A stretch of 64,000 nt of DNA from Sphaerisporangium rubeum (lineage in GTDB: Bacteria > Actinomycetota > Actinomycetes > Streptosporangiales > Streptosporangiaceae), in NCBI RefSeq assembly GCF_014207705.1, contig NZ_JACHIU010000001.1, positions 3,402,501 through 3,466,500 on the forward strand. Reading direction: 5' to 3'. Both the position numbers and the translations under genes were made by a program. The notes beneath the pieces were generated by a model. The model searched no databases. It was not told where the DNA came from and was given only the letters and a program-made list of their open reading frames with translations. Below are positions 53,374 to 59,096 of the stretch, piece after piece. Numbering within the stretch: position 1 is the stretch's first letter; the number at the start of each line of letters is the position of its first letter.

Positions 53374-55050
53374 ATGACCCCCGACGCCATCGACGACGTC
53401 ACGAGCTTCGACGATCTCGGGCTGCGGCCCGAGCTGCTGCGCGCGCTCGGCGCGCTCGGGTACGAGGAGCCGACACCGATCCAGCGCGAGGCGATCCCGC
53501 TGCTGCTCGGCGGCCGTGACCTGCTCGGCCAGGCCGCGACCGGCACGGGGAAGACGGCGGCCTTCGCGCTGCCGATCCTCCAGCGCATGCCGGAGGGAGG
53601 CCGGGGCGAGGAACCCCTGGCGCTGGTGCTCGTGCCGACTCGCGAACTCGCGGTGCAGGTGTCGCAGGCGATCCACCGGTACGGACGCGAGCTCGGCACG
53701 CGGGTCCTGCCGATCTACGGCGGCCAGCCGATCGGCCGGCAACTGCGTGAACTGCAACGAGGCGTGGACGTCGTCGTGGCCACACCGGGACGCGCGCTCG
53801 ACCACATCGGCCGCAAGACGCTGCGGCTGGACTCCCTGGAGATGGTCGTCCTCGACGAGGCCGACGAGATGCTCGACATGGGGTTCGCCGAGGACATCGA
53901 GGCCATCCTGCAGGACACCCCCACGCAGCGGCAGACCGTGCTGTTCTCCGCCACCATGCCGCCGCGCATCGACGCCATCGCGCGCAGCCACCTGCGCGAC
54001 CCCGAGCGGGTGCAGATCGAGCGGGAGCCGGCCGCGCCGGGGGAGGAGCCGCTGATCCGGCAGAGCGCCTACGTCGTCCCGCGCGCGCACAAGCCCGCGG
54101 CGCTCGGCCGGGTGCTGGACGTCGAGGCGCCGGACGCCACCATCGTGTTCTGCCGCACCCGTGAAGAGGTCGACAGCCTCACCGAGACCATGAACGGCCG
54201 CGGCTACCGCGCCGAGGCGCTGCACGGCGGCATGGGCCAGGAACAGCGCGACCGCGTCATGTCGCGGCTGCGCAACGGCACCGCCGACCTGCTGGTGGCG
54301 ACCGACGTCGCCGCGCGCGGCCTCGACATCGAGCACCTGACCCACGTCGTCAACTACAACGTCCCGTCGGCGCCGGAGTCGTACGTCCACCGCGTGGGCC
54401 GCGTCGGCCGCGCCGGCCGCGAAGGCGTGGCCATCACGCTGGCCGAGCCGCGCGAGCACCGCATGCTGAAGACCATCGAGCGCGTCACCAAGAACCGCAT
54501 CACCGTCGAGAAGGTCCCCACGGTGGCCGACCTGCGGGCCCGGCGCCTGGAGCTGACCCGCGCGGCCCTTGAGGAAAGCATCCTCGAAGACGACCTGGAG
54601 CACTTCCGCGTGGTCGTCGACACCCTCGCCGACGAGTTCGACGTCATGGAGATCGCCATGGCCGCCGTCAAACTGGCCCACGAGGCCGCCGGCGGCGCCG
54701 CCGACGACCAGGAGATCCCCGACGTCCCCCTCCGCGCCGAACGCGAAGGCCGCCCCCGCCGCGACCAGCCCCGCGACGACCGCCGTCCCCGCACCCCCAC
54801 CCGAGGCATGACCCGCATCTTCATCGGCGCCGGCCGCAGCTCCGGCATCCGCCCCCAGGACCTCGTAGGCGCCATAGCCAACGAGTCCCAACTGAGCGGC
54901 CGCGACATCGGCGCCATCGAAATAGCCGACCGCTTCTCCCTGGTAGAGGTCCCCGACCACGCCACCAACGAGGTGATCTCCGCCCTCCGCCAAAGCACCA
55001 TAAAAGGCAAAAAACCCACAATCCGCCGCGAACGCTTCGAACCCCGCTAA
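53374..55050 (+). CDS. DeaD/CsdA-type DEAD-box helicase with C-terminal RNA-binding domain
   Basis: RNA helicase of 558 residues. Motifs I (AATGTGKT), Ia (PTRELAVQV), II (VLDEADE), III (FSATMP), V (TDVAARGLDI) and VI (HRVGRVGRAGR) are present, and a DbpA-like RNA-binding domain (about 470-550; RIFIGAGRSSGIRPQDLVGAI) follows a charged linker. This domain makes it the DeaD/CsdA type, used in ribosome assembly and cold adaptation. ATG 53374 with GAGGAG upstream. Its stop codon lies in the first unit of a 23-bp tandem array. Confidence 0.93.
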   Translation: MTPDAIDDVTSFDDLGLRPELLRALGALGYEEPTPIQREAIPLLLGGRDLLGQAATGTGKTAAFALPILQRMPEGGRGEEPLALVLVPTRELAVQVSQAIHRYGRELGTRVLPIYGGQPIGRQLRELQRGVDVVVATPGRALDHIGRKTLRLDSLEMVVLDEADEMLDMGFAEDIEAILQDTPTQRQTVLFSATMPPRIDAIARSHLRDPERVQIEREPAAPGEEPLIRQSAYVVPRAHKPAALGRVLDVEAPDATIVFCRTREEVDSLTETMNGRGYRAEALHGGMGQEQRDRVMSRLRNGTADLLVATDVAARGLDIEHLTHVVNYNVPSAPESYVHRVGRVGRAGREGVAITLAEPREHRMLKTIERVTKNRITVEKVPTVADLRARRLELTRAALEESILEDDLEHFRVVVDTLADEFDVMEIAMAAVKLAHEAAGGAADDQEIPDVPLRAEREGRPRRDQPRDDRRPRTPTRGMTRIFIGAGRSSGIRPQDLVGAIANESQLSGRDIGAIEIADRFSLVEVPDHATNEVISALRQSTIKGKKPTIRRERFEPR

Positions 55051-55130
55051 CCCCCCGTCGCACAAGGCGCTAGCCCCCCGTCGCACTCGGCGTTAGCCCC
55101 CCGTCGCACACGGCGCTAACCCCCTGCACA
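55045..55130 (+). repeat. 23-bp tandem repeat starting at the helicase stop codon
   Basis: Three full units (55045-55067, 55068-55090, 55091-55113) and a partial fourth. Each starts CGCTAA, CGCTAG or CGTTAG followed by CCCCCCGTCGCAC. The first unit contains the helicase's own final Arg codon and TAA, so each copy repeats the stop codon in a new position. Confidence 0.9.
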
Positions 55131-55139
55131 CACGACCCG

Positions 55140-55582
55140 GGTCGTCTTCGCGCCGCAAGGGGCCCAGTTTCCGGCGCCGGTACGGCGGGACGTTGTACGG
55201 CGAATTCGGCGCCGTCGTGCGGCGGGACAGGTGGAACCGTTGCGCCGTCGTAATGGTTCCGTGTCCGGTGGTGGGCCGGTGTCTGTGTCTTGGTCCGGCC
55301 CGGCTGTCCTCGTGTGGCAGGAGGTCCAGTTTCGGCGCCGGTGCGGCGGGTCGTGGTGCGGCGGGTTCGGCGCCGTCGTGCGGTGGGACAGGTGGAATCG
55401 TTCCGTCGTCGTAATGGTTCCGTGTCCGGTGGTGGGCCGGTGTCTGTGTCTTGGTCCGGCCCGGCTGTCCTCGTGTCGCAGGGGGTCCAGTTTTCGGCGC
55501 CGGTATGGCGGGTCGTGGTGCGGCGGGTTCGGCGCCGTCGTACGGCGGGACAGGTGGGACCGTCCCGGCGCCGACATGGTCC
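55140..55582. repeat. 161/162-bp tandem direct repeat, ~2.7 copies
   Basis: Units begin CCAGTTT at 55164, 55326 and 55487, with a fragment of an earlier unit from about 55140. About 65 bp, including a GGGCCGG-N15-CCGGCCC dyad, are identical between units 1 and 2. Unit 3 stops after ~95 bp. No spacers, no insertion-sequence ends. It may be a recent duplication of non-coding DNA or an array of small RNAs. Confidence 0.85.
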
Positions 55583-55718: not shown

Positions 55719-57173
55719 TCAGGCGAGGGTGTTCACGGCGGCGGTGAAGACGTGGGGGAAGGTGCGGGCCGCGGGGACGATCAGGCGGGTGGGGGTGGGG
55801 TGGCGGCGGGTGGTGAGGAGGGCTGTGGTGAGGAGGCGGTGGGGGCGGGAGATCCGGAGCCAGGCGCGGTCGTAGGACTCGGGTCGGCCGGAGCGCAGGG
55901 AGGCGATCAGGGCCTCGGCGGACAGCAGGGCCAGGGAGACGCCTTCGCCGGTGAGCGCGTCCACGTAGCCGGCGGCGTCGCCTGCCAGAAGGACGCGGCC
56001 GTGGACCCGGGATCGGACGCGGCGGCGCATGGGGCCGGCGCCGCGCACGGAGGTGACCGGGGGGCCGGTCAGGCGGTCCAGCAGAGCGGGGAACGCGGTG
56101 AGGTGCTCGTCGTACGTGCGTCTCTCCGAACTGAGCACGGCCACGCCGACCATGTCCTCGGCCACGGGTGTCACGTACGCCTCGCTCCGTTCGGCCCAGT
56201 ACACCTCGACGAAGTCGGTCCATGGAGCGACCCGGAAGTGCCGCCGCAGGCCGTACCGCCGTGGCGCCGTGCCGGCGGGAAGCGCGAGACCGAGTGCTTC
56301 CCGCAGCGGTGAACGGAGGCCGTCGGCGGCGACGAGCCATCGTGCCCGCAGGGTGCCGTCGCCTGCCAGATCGGCTGCGGCGAGTTCCACGGCGGCGGTG
56401 CCGTCCGACGGCATCGTGAAACGAACGGTGTCGGTACACACGGGGGAACGGCGGGGGTCGGCATGCGCCGCGCGATGGTGGGGACCGGCGTGTGGCGGGA
56501 GATGGTGGGGGTCGGCGTGCGCGGCGAGATTTTCGGGATCGGCATGCGCCGGGAGATGGTGACGGTCGGCATGCGCGGCGAGACGTTCGGGGTCGGCATG
56601 TGGCGGGAGATGGTGGGGGTCGGCGTGCGCGGCGAGATTTTCGGGATCGGCATGCGCCGGGAGATGGTGGGGGTCGGCGTGCGTGGCGAGACGTTTGGGG
56701 TCGGCATGCGCGGCGTGACGTTTGGGGTCGGTGCGTACCGGCGTTCCGGACATCGGTGAGACGGGAGGAGACATGTGGACGGATACCTCCACCCCCTCAC
56801 TGTCCTGCCGGACGCCGGTGACCTTTCCCTGGACGACCGGGATTCCGAGGGAGGCGACGCGAGCCATGAGGGCCGCGTGGAGGCAGGTACGCCGGACGCC
56901 GAGTCCGGTCGTGGCGCGGAAGGGGGCATCGGCATGCCGGTGGGGGTCGAGGTAGCGGATGCCGCGCAGGGGGTGGCCCGGGGGATGGACGCCTAGTGCG
57001 TGGAGCGCGGCGACGCCGCTCGGCATCAGTCCTTCGCCGCAGGCTTTGTCGACAGGAGCGAGGCGGGGTTCCACGACCACCACGGTCATGCCGGCCAGTG
57101 CCGCGTTGAGCGCTGTGGCCAGCCCGGCGGGCCCACCCCCGGCCACCAGGACGTCGATCACGTCGCCGGTCAT
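55719..57173 (-). CDS. FAD-dependent reductase/hydroxylase with nonapeptide-repeat insert
   Basis: Flavoprotein of 484 residues of the geranylgeranyl-reductase/aromatic-hydroxylase type. GGGPAGLATALNAA (FAD, about 13-26), CGEGLMPSG, and the second FAD motif VLLAGDAAGYVDALTGEGV are intact. Residues ~147-240 are about ten tandem nonapeptides of the HADPxxLxx type, absent from normal ~390-residue relatives, inserted between strands of the FAD domain. ATG 57173 overlaps the spacer ORF stop (ATGA) and lacks its own ribosome site, so it is read by coupling. In the srs alkylresorcinol operon a flavoprotein hydroxylase (SrsC) fills this place. Confidence 0.82.
   Translation of the reverse strand: MTGDVIDVLVAGGGPAGLATALNAALAGMTVVVVEPRLAPVDKACGEGLMPSGVAALHALGVHPPGHPLRGIRYLDPHRHADAPFRATTGLGVRRTCLHAALMARVASLGIPVVQGKVTGVRQDSEGVEVSVHMSPPVSPMSGTPVRTDPKRHAAHADPKRLATHADPHHLPAHADPENLAAHADPHHLPPHADPERLAAHADRHHLPAHADPENLAAHADPHHLPPHAGPHHRAAHADPRRSPVCTDTVRFTMPSDGTAAVELAAADLAGDGTLRARWLVAADGLRSPLREALGLALPAGTAPRRYGLRRHFRVAPWTDFVEVYWAERSEAYVTPVAEDMVGVAVLSSERRTYDEHLTAFPALLDRLTGPPVTSVRGAGPMRRRVRSRVHGRVLLAGDAAGYVDALTGEGVSLALLSAEALIASLRSGRPESYDRAWLRISRPHRLLTTALLTTRRHPTPTRLIVPAARTFPHVFTAAVNTLA
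56457..56737 (-). repeat. 27-bp in-frame tandem repeat, ~10 copies, in the FAD gene
   Basis: Units such as GGCATGCGCCGGGAGATGGT plus seven bases (plus strand) recur about ten times and encode His-Ala-Asp-Pro-rich nonapeptides. Alternation of two unit subtypes shows that duplication occurred in blocks of two. Confidence 0.92.
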
Positions 57174-57409
57174 CGGAAGGCCGGTCGCGCGGCCGGCAAA
57201 CGGGAGGCCGGTCGGGTGGCCGGCAAACGGGAGGCCGGTCGCGCGGTCGGCAAACGGGAGGCCGGTCGGGTGGCCGGCAATCGGAAGGCCGGTCGCACGT
57301 TCGGCGATCGGGAGGCCACGGGTGTGTCCGGCCACCGGGACGTCGATTGTGTCATCGGGACGTCGGTCACGCCGTCCGTCTCCAGGAGGCCGCTCGGGTG
57401 GCCGGTCAT
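57170..57409 (-). CDS. 79-residue repeat-built spacer ORF coupled to both neighbours
   Basis: ATG 57409 overlaps the stop of the methyltransferase gene (ATGA) and its own TGA overlaps the ATG of the FAD gene (ATGA again). The last ~55 residues are nonapeptides of the form RPASRLPAT, encoded by six 27-bp units. Each unit resembles the joined end of the methyltransferase and start of the FAD gene. No known domain; probably made by duplication of the gene junction. Whether a protein accumulates is unknown, but the frame is kept open and would carry ribosomes to the next gene. Confidence 0.5.
   Translation of the reverse strand: MTGHPSGLLETDGVTDVPMTQSTSRWPDTPVASRSPNVRPAFRLPATRPASRLPTARPASRLPATRPASRLPAARPAFR
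57178..57339 (-). repeat. 27-bp tandem repeat, 6 units, at the methyltransferase/FAD-gene junction
   Basis: Units at 57178, 57205, 57232, 57259, 57286 and 57313 (the last degenerate), for example AGGCCGGTCGGGTGGCCGGC plus seven bases. A related unit at 57386-57412 holds the methyltransferase stop and the spacer ATG; the FAD gene's own start (GCCGGTCATCGGA) matches the end of a unit. Confidence 0.9.
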
Positions 57410-57948
57410 GGGGACGCCGGCCGGGTGGGTTGTTCGAGGGTGGTCAGTGCGTGGTTCTCGGAGCGGATGCGGACGACCATCAAGATGGCGTTCAGGACGG
57501 TGAACACCGCGGCGGTGAGCCACGCGTCGTGGACCAGAGGGAGCGCGGCTCCCTCCACGGCGACGGCCACGTAGTTGGGGTGCCTCAGCCACCGCAGGCG
57601 GTACGGGCCGCGCCGCACCAGCGTCAGCCCCGGGACCACGATCACCTTGGTGTTCCACTGCGGCCCGAGCGCGGTGATGCACCACCACCGCAGTGCTTGC
57701 GCGGCGACGACCAGGACCAGCATCGGCCAGCCGAGCGCGGGGACGAAGGGCCGGTCGAGCAGGCCGGCTTCGAGGAGGCACCCGGCGAGCAGGCCGGTGT
57801 GCAGTGCGACCATCCACGGGTAGTGCGCCTGGCCGAACGTCCGGCCGCCCCTGGCGAGGCTCCACCGTTCGTTGCGGCGCGCGACGACGAGCTCGGCGAG
57901 CCGTTCCAGGCCGACGAGCAGGACCAGCACTACGTACCAGGAGGACAT
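57406..57948 (-). CDS. Isoprenylcysteine-carboxylmethyltransferase-like membrane methyltransferase
   Basis: ICMT-family membrane enzyme of 180 residues with about four or five helices and the SAM-binding segment VRRGPYRLRWLRHPNYVA (about 112-129), then RIRSENHAL. In actinomycetes such genes sit next to type III PKS genes and O-methylate alkylresorcinols (SrsB type). It is 95 nt downstream of the PKS gene. Its stop overlaps the spacer ORF start. Confidence 0.88.
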   Translation of the reverse strand: MSSWYVVLVLLVGLERLAELVVARRNERWSLARGGRTFGQAHYPWMVALHTGLLAGCLLEAGLLDRPFVPALGWPMLVLVVAAQALRWWCITALGPQWNTKVIVVPGLTLVRRGPYRLRWLRHPNYVAVAVEGAALPLVHDAWLTAAVFTVLNAILMVVRIRSENHALTTLEQPTRPASP

Positions 57949-58043: not shown

Positions 58044-59096
58044 TCACCAGCGCAGCAGGACGAGTTCGGAGCAGAAGCCGGGGCCGAGCGCCATCATCAG
58101 GCCCGGAGTGCCGGGTGGGGGGTGCCGGGTGAGGGTGTCACGCAGGACGTGCAGCACCGATGAGGACGACAGGTTGCCGACGGCGGCCAGTGACCGCCAG
58201 GTGACGTCCAGGGCCCCCGGAGGCAGGTCGAGGGTCTCGGTGACGGCGTCGAGGACTTTCGGGCCGCCGGGGTGGCACACCCAGGCCGACACGTCGGCGG
58301 GGGTGAGTCCGTGGTCGGCGAGGAAGCCGTGGACGTCGTCGGCGAGGTGGGTGCGGACGACGTCGGGCACGCTCGAGTCCAGGACCACGCGGAACCCGCT
58401 GCCGGTGACGTCCCATCCCATGACGGTCTCGGTGCCGGGGTACAGGTGGCCGCGGGACCCCGCCACGGTGACGCCGGGTCCGTCACCGCGACCGGATCCG
58501 CAGGCGACGACCGCGGCGGCGCCGTCCCCGAACAGCGCGCTCGCCACGAAGTTGACGGGGGTCGCGTCGGCGCGCTGCAACGTCAGCGAGCACAGCTCCA
58601 CCGACAGCAGCACGGCGACGTGGTCGGGCCATCCGCGCAGGTAGTCGTGCAGCCGCGCGATCCCGGCGGCGCCGGCCACGCAACCGAGCCCGAAGACGGG
58701 CAGGCGCTTGACGTCCGGCCGCATGCCGAGGCGTCCGGCGATCCGCGCCTCGATGGACGGCGCGGCGACTCCCGTCACCGACGTGAACATGATCATGTCC
58801 ACGTCGCGCGGCGTCAGCCCGGCCGCCTCCAGCGCGCCGCTCACCGCCTCGGCGCCGAGCTCGACCGCCTGCTCGACGAACACGTCGTTGGCCTGTCCGA
58901 ACCCGTCGAGCTTGCCGTACTCCTCCAGGGGCAGGACCAGATGCCGATACTCGACCCGTGCCGCACGGTGCAGGCGGCGCAGCAGCCGCCGGTCGGCGTC
59001 CGGCGGGAGGCAGATGTCGGCGAACGCCTCGGTGATCTCCGACTGGGGGTAGCGATTGGGGGGCAGCGCACCGTGCACAGCGGTGATTCGGGTCAT
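58044..59096 (-). CDS. Type III polyketide synthase
   Basis: Chalcone-synthase-fold PKS of 350 residues. The catalytic triad is complete: Cys139 in [10 protein letters not shown], His275 in VCHPGG and Asn308 in AVGNLSSSS. The C-terminal loop [14 protein letters not shown] is intact. With an ICMT-like methyltransferase and a flavoprotein downstream it matches the srsABC plan for phenolic lipids (alkylresorcinols or alkylpyrones). The ribosome site before ATG 59096 is weak. Confidence 0.93.

Follow-up and report, generated by a model that had tools for sequence, protein, structure and literature searches.

A minisatellite-built open reading frame with stop/start overlaps at both ends in a methyltransferase-oxidoreductase junction of Sphaerisporangium

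Introduction

Coupling of neighbouring genes at -4 (NTGA) stop/start overlaps is standard, while the ability of ribosomes to cross long gaps after termination has been argued mostly from engineered constructs. Here we analyse a natural junction in a 64,000-nucleotide stretch of DNA from the soil actinobacterium Sphaerisporangium rubeum (the window; positions 3,402,501-3,466,500 of a single-contig 7.5-Mb genome), where the genes for an ICMT-family methyltransferase (ICMT) and a FAD-dependent oxidoreductase (FAD) are separated by a tandem array, through which a 79-codon open reading frame (ORF) runs. Described systems come close to this arrangement. For gene pairs of Escherichia coli, the pertinent part of one study reports that re-initiation is down 40-80% at a distance of +14 nt and almost completely lost at +38 nt (PMC10666635). 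According to a passage in a review, MIRU repeats, mobile elements present in many mycobacteria, hold an ORF that is coupled at the insertion sites through -4 spacing; the review also contains the idea that short upstream ORFs deliver ribosomes to a coupled gene (PMC12548453).

The spacer ORF of Sphaerisporangium shares with -4 pairs coupled by termination-reinitiation, as outlined in PMC10666635, the same overlap, which is found at both of its ends and in most relatives; unlike in such pairs, a third, non-homologous, repeat-built ORF stands between the two genes. As in the MIRU passage, repeat DNA at the junction holds an ORF that, from its sequence alone, appears linked to the following gene through a -4 coupling (ATGA 57173). 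Unlike MIRUs, with which it can be compared by description only, the array lies at a single genomic place and resembles the start of the gene that it precedes. The spacer ORF would serve only to hand ribosomes on to the start that follows, as in the review's sketch of short upstream ORFs; unlike those, it is internal to an operon, has a coupled gene on either side and would be entered from a -4 overlap, and three relatives (L005, L302 and L315) chain two or three such relay ORFs. In open-licence literature on coupling, repeats, relay ORFs and Streptomyces tandem repeats, no title among those listed resembled tandem duplication across a stop/start overlap to make relay ORFs, the nearest match being the MIRU passage. 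What appears to be new, as far as the searched literature shows, is a repeat that stems locally from the downstream gene, together with the repeated bridging of a single conserved junction. A preliminary description of the junction went too far in stating that no such case had been described, given that the review has the MIRU ORF coupling by the same -4 spacing (PMC12548453).

A spacer ORF that overlaps both neighbours

The ICMT gene (57406..57948, minus strand; Pfam ICMT, E 2.4e-27) ends with TGA 57408-57406, which overlaps ATG 57409. At this ATG the spacer ORF opens (57170..57409, minus strand), and it closes after 79 codons at TGA 57172-57170, overlapping ATG 57173 (57171..57173) in the frame of the FAD gene (55719..57173, minus strand, counted from this ATG; Pfam FAD_binding_3, E 2.1e-18). 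An NTGA shared stop/start is present at each end of the spacer ORF and absent directly between ICMT and FAD. The ORF list and repeat finding thus bear out what was first described, a tandem array and an ORF of 79 codons that begins and ends in an ATGA overlap. From its overlap with the spacer-ORF stop, ATG 57173 is the likely re-initiation start of FAD. The start conserved in relatives, and presumed ancestral, is a GTG at 57159..57161 (minus strand; GTGATCGACGTC), 12 bases downstream of ATG 57173; at this GTG the window reads VIDVLVAGGGPAG.

Inside the spacer, frames, Shine-Dalgarno energy and alignment with junctions of the genus identify a relic of the ancestral GTGA overlap at 57367..57370 (minus strand). 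It consists of GGAG, nine bases and then GTGACCGACGTCCCG, with TGA in the ICMT frame and GTG in the spacer-ORF frame. Its Shine-Dalgarno match of -6.4 kcal/mol falls within the range of eight direct genus junctions (-5.6 to -7.2) and is the only strong one among the five candidate starts at the junction, the others scoring -2.8 (57409), 0.0 (57335), -1.7 (57173) and -1.7 kcal/mol (57161); the measure is crude, with 64% of 108 direct junctions at -4 or better.

The spacer-ORF product matched no Pfam family, and the array showed no excess of silent differences in any of its frames, from which the spacer peptide seems unconstrained. We therefore rejected a function for the peptide; it probably has none of its own, and the ORF would serve as a ribosome relay.

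The array and its likely origin from the FAD gene start

At 57174-57317 Tandem Repeats Finder reported a 27-bp array (5.3 copies, score 197) and a higher-order 54-bp array (2.7 copies, 91% match, score 239), so that the junction array is made of head-to-tail units of 27 bp and 54 bp. Repeat finding and unit alignment place six 27-bp units at 57165..57326 (minus strand). A further array-like unit lies over the ICMT end and its ATGA (57401..57427, minus strand); it is 21/27 identical to the array consensus, a match reached by 0 of 2000 dinucleotide shuffles, and units must therefore also have reached the ICMT tail. The preliminary description had listed six units and one more at the ICMT end, an inventory that proved incomplete: two diverged units are also present on the minus strand, at 57327..57353 and, upstream of the relic overlap, at 57374..57400 (19/27 to the consensus).

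Among the spacer units, the one at 57327..57353 most clearly copies the start of the FAD gene. It is 22/27 identical to 57164-57138, a segment that begins three bases before the FAD start, and its 24-mer match (19) to the FAD start beat the best match in all 300 shuffled regions. For the remaining units the identity to the FAD start is 13-17/27, with shuffles as good at a frequency of 0.0135 for the weakest unit and at most 0.0015 for the rest. In the register of the repeat alignment, ATG 57173 occupies the place of FAD codon 6 (GTG). Between the relic and the copy that follows it the spacing is 20 bp; being 7 short of the 27-bp unit, it places the spacer ORF and FAD in different frames.

On sequence grounds the 27-bp units are likely diverged tandem copies of the FAD gene 5' end, which is the probable source because the genus relatives examined have the FAD start without such an array. 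The preliminary description had instead taken the seed to be the ICMT tail fused to ATGACCGGC; it is better read as the FAD 5' end, whose conserved start is GTG 57161 and not ATG 57173. The array is absent from the ten other Sphaerisporangium genomes searched, which gave short weak matches alone. A dispersed repeat family was rejected, since an 84-nt array query matched four overlapping or adjacent places, all at the ICMT-FAD junction, and found elsewhere in the genome nothing beyond matches of about 37 nt or shorter (E 0.024 or worse). Minisatellites are common, with 33 arrays in 400 kb of this genome, 8 in the 64-kb window and 28 in 400 kb from a genus relative (G009); the similar density there led us to reject an unusual minisatellite load.

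The stop/start overlap is conserved in relatives

We compared 279 distinct ICMT-FAD junctions, comprising 223 and a further 56. One part of the sample consists of the best-scoring 60 among those matches listed in one search that lacked a locus, weaker matches being left out; a second search gave 136 matches, of which 30 came as loci, 100 were fetched and 6 were left out. Exact duplicates (57 and 4) and two rows without a recognisable ICMT (L119 and L120) were dropped, while near-identical species were counted separately.

A direct 4-base overlap of the ICMT stop and the FAD start was found in 232 of the 279 junctions, in agreement with the overlap that the preliminary description expected in relatives. 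Its usual form is GTGATCGAC, that is, GTGA or ATGA followed by TCGAC. The earlier proposal that an overlap was amplified stands in part: local tandem duplication did lengthen the junction, and an ORF with NTGA at each end spans it, but what relatives conserve is GTGATCGAC and not ATGACCGGC. C precedes the ICMT stop in only 10/214 cases, although it makes up 44% of nearby third positions.

Another 36 junctions are not direct (30 in the first 223 and 6 in the further 56). The conserved FAD start, defined by the motif [AGT]TGAT[CT]GA, is recognisable in 21 of them (20 + 1), and the bridging test was limited to junctions carrying it. The 15 without it (10 + 5), kept out of that test, each have an in-frame candidate start that either overlaps the stop or follows it within 13 nt, with additional candidates at +16, +20 and +22 in L087, L110 and L362, respectively. 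No FAD motif occurred near the stop in the last 11 (9 + 2), which were counted neither as direct nor as bridged; two of these, L080 and L098, look like direct ATGA overlaps by eye.

Lengthened junctions are bridged by NTGA-linked ORFs

Sixteen of the 21 non-direct junctions with a conserved FAD start are bridged by NTGA-linked ORFs. Besides the 79 codons of the window, the bridges measure 15+6+6 codons in L005, 9 in L006, 14 in L028 (with 9-bp repeats), 34 in L157, 15+14 in L302, 11+3+3 in L315 and 3 in L340; eight Nonomuraea loci have 3 codons each and probably represent one event. Such chains span every one of the seven gaps in this set that exceed 15 nt, which range from 25 to 247 nt.

The lengthenings differ in make-up. 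L157 (Nonomuraea) holds a FAD-start copy (22/30 bases) followed by 3.4 copies of a 21-bp unit, with GTGA at each end, and is by its sequence a putative minisatellite relay of independent origin. In L174 (Acrocarpospora) an ATGA stands at the ICMT stop and a 15-bp array shares the reading frame of FAD, an arrangement that would extend the FAD N-terminus. The 77-nt spacer of L005 is bridged and had no array reported. A long spacer without repeats, which the preliminary description held would refute its history, thus does occur, and it is nevertheless bridged. Because other species show 8-, 9-, 15- and 21-bp solutions or none, the rule suggested by these sequences is one of length modulo 3, not of 27.

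A scan of 864 kb (loci L197-L236 and the window) found 91 direct pairs and 24 single-hop candidates, NTGA-bracketed ORFs of 5 to 413 codons, some of which are probably ordinary small genes. None of the 24 lay on a tandem array, a result that carries no weight since the scan was insensitive, its GC filter having missed the window's own case.

Other variants were seen in the sample. In-frame minisatellites of 39 and 45 bp occur in the ICMT C-terminal tail of L019 and L092, where the GTGA overlap is intact. L182 has a 14-bp repeat (CCGGCCCCGCGTGA, 3.4 copies) at the ICMT stop, and no FAD motif was found adjoining its ICMT. In four Streptomycetaceae loci (L356, L361, L363 and L364) CTGA and an ATG at +13 replace the overlap.

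Proposed history and rival explanations

The explanation that we favour, with modest confidence, joins an ancestral overlap, a duplication of the FAD start and a relay ORF with re-initiation at 57173. We infer the following order of events. ICMT and FAD would at first have been joined by a 4-base stop/start overlap (RTGATCGAC), as in most relatives, until a 27-bp tandem duplication at the FAD start separated them. The units would then have diverged and spread backwards over the ICMT tail, to which they brought its present ATGA stop; a unit lacking 7 bp would have shifted the spacer ORF out of the frame of FAD. Today ribosomes may enter the spacer ORF after the ICMT stop at 57408, or at the surviving Shine-Dalgarno sequence and GTG 57370, read it across the array and stop on ATGA 57173, where FAD would be re-initiated.

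The same logic can be put in general form. After a duplication of length u over an NTGA overlap, translation from the first start would proceed in the frame of FAD. Where u = 0 mod 3, it would run into FAD in frame as an N-terminal extension; where u = 2 mod 3, it would meet the second TGA in frame and stop on the next NTGA, giving a relay ORF; where u = 1 mod 3, this route would no longer couple the genes. We put forward tentatively, as an idea that falls a little short of probable, that the 4-base overlap is self-propagating under tandem duplication, and that selection for coupling has repeatedly kept only growth of 0 or 2 mod 3, producing minisatellite relays, chains of up to three micro-ORFs and a natural re-initiation limit of about 15-20 nt.

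In favour of this history stand the direct overlap in 232/279 junctions, the FAD-start copy at 57353, the ICMT-frame TGA and Shine-Dalgarno match of the relic, the bridging of all seven long gaps, the independent minisatellites of L157 and L174, the rarity of C before the ICMT stop and the published distance dependence. Other observations weigh against it. An open spacer frame alone is weak evidence, unremarkable given its length and start codon: when the window spacer is shuffled at constant length and dinucleotide content, the bridge survives in 63% of cases, and in 72-100% for five other lengthening events. The features that are not automatic are the length class and the base preceding the ICMT stop. 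With random length and a random base before the stop, the product of the chance probabilities that all seven long gaps are bridged is 1.1e-4, which favours the history; holding the start at the ICMT stop fixed raises it to 0.008. Both figures, however, were computed after the pattern had been noticed and treat the seven events as independent. The 56 further junctions, examined after a prediction was written, brought no contradiction and also no long gap with a conserved start. Five junctions with gaps of 5-15 nt (L278, L300, L301, L305 and L325) are unbridged, four of them ending in TAG; the loss of re-initiation with distance reported for E. coli pairs would explain why short gaps can stay so (PMC10666635, as far as its distance data go). 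In L005, L006, L028 and L157 the FAD starts keep a Shine-Dalgarno-like match of their own (-5.0 to -7.0), so that their relays need not be essential. Apart from the copy at 57353, single-unit matches to the FAD start are modest (13-17/27) and unremarkable as best-of-region matches, and the relic's 16/24 match to the FAD start was equalled in 7/300 shuffles in a best-of-region scan.

These points also feed the alternatives. The FAD frame is open through the whole array back to GTG 57335, which makes an N-terminal extension possible: the array would be translated as 54 residues before ATG 57173, as appears to be the case for the in-frame 15-bp array at the junction of L174, and the spacer ORF would be incidental. 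Third-position GC over the array is indeed highest in the FAD frame (0.83 versus 0.76 and 0.66), a bias that is expected if the units derive from FAD codons. We nonetheless consider this account unlikely, as GTG 57335 has no Shine-Dalgarno match (0.0 kcal/mol), sits 73 nt beyond the ICMT stop and opens a frame in which the array has no excess of silent differences (11 silent versus 50 altering codon pairs). Rather improbable, in our view, is that coupling is irrelevant: in a GC-rich genome the minisatellite would be neutral and the ORF open by composition, and FAD would be initiated independently or poorly expressed. The frequency with which shuffles keep the bridge, the abundance of arrays here and in the genus relative, and the Shine-Dalgarno-like matches at the FAD starts of four other relay loci all suit such a view. 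So do the Streptomycetaceae L361, L363 and L364, three of the four CTGA loci, in which GGAGG inside the gap and the ATG at +13 point to independent initiation. It has to contend with the lack of a Shine-Dalgarno match at both 57173 and 57161 in the window (-1.7), with an overlap that is direct in 232/279 junctions and with the bridging of the seven long gaps.

Very improbable is the course of events first proposed, in which the original overlap was ATGACCGGC, a fusion of the ICMT tail with the FAD start, and grew in frame by 27-bp steps. Both end units carry ATGACCGGC, and the resemblance of the ICMT-end unit to the consensus (21/27) would fit; against this, FAD starts at GTGATCGAC in relatives, the spacer holds a FAD-start copy and a relic overlap, and one step measures 20 bp, not 27.

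If ancestral overlap, FAD-start duplication and relay ORF are indeed connected as we propose, then the many natural lengthenings of one conserved coupled junction, with NTGA-linked ORFs in each of the seven long gaps, provide sequences on which the distance rule can be tested in nature. They would also yield a plain rule of length (0 or 2 mod 3) by which coupled operons can grow, and a caution for annotation, in that short ORFs between coupled genes may be relays and not genes.

The operon and neighbouring repeats

From the ORF list and Pfam, the minus strand carries three genes in the order type III polyketide synthase, ICMT-family methyltransferase and FAD oxidoreductase, the first of them at 58044..59096 (Pfam Chal_sti_synt_N/C above cut-off). 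The srsABC operon is of the same type III polyketide synthase, methyltransferase and oxidoreductase kind. An order of polyketide synthase, methyltransferase and oxidoreductase has been described for alkylresorcinol and polyketide-quinone clusters, in the section of PMC9927152 relevant here. The window shares with the pkqABC-type operon outlined there the same families and gene order on one strand, known here from the genes alone, and differs in that its last junction is filled by an array.

The FAD protein is 480 aa long from GTG 57161, versus 338-400 aa in 94, and 223 aa in one, of the 95 relatives whose ORF is complete. A second 27-bp array (10.3 copies, encoding HADPHHLPA-like repeats) lies in frame within the FAD gene at 56453-56731 on the minus strand; among 12 aligned relatives, L011 alone has an insertion at its position. 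Two more arrays stand just 3' of the FAD gene end, at 55164-55567 (161 bp x 2.5) and 55045-55124 (23 bp x 3.5).

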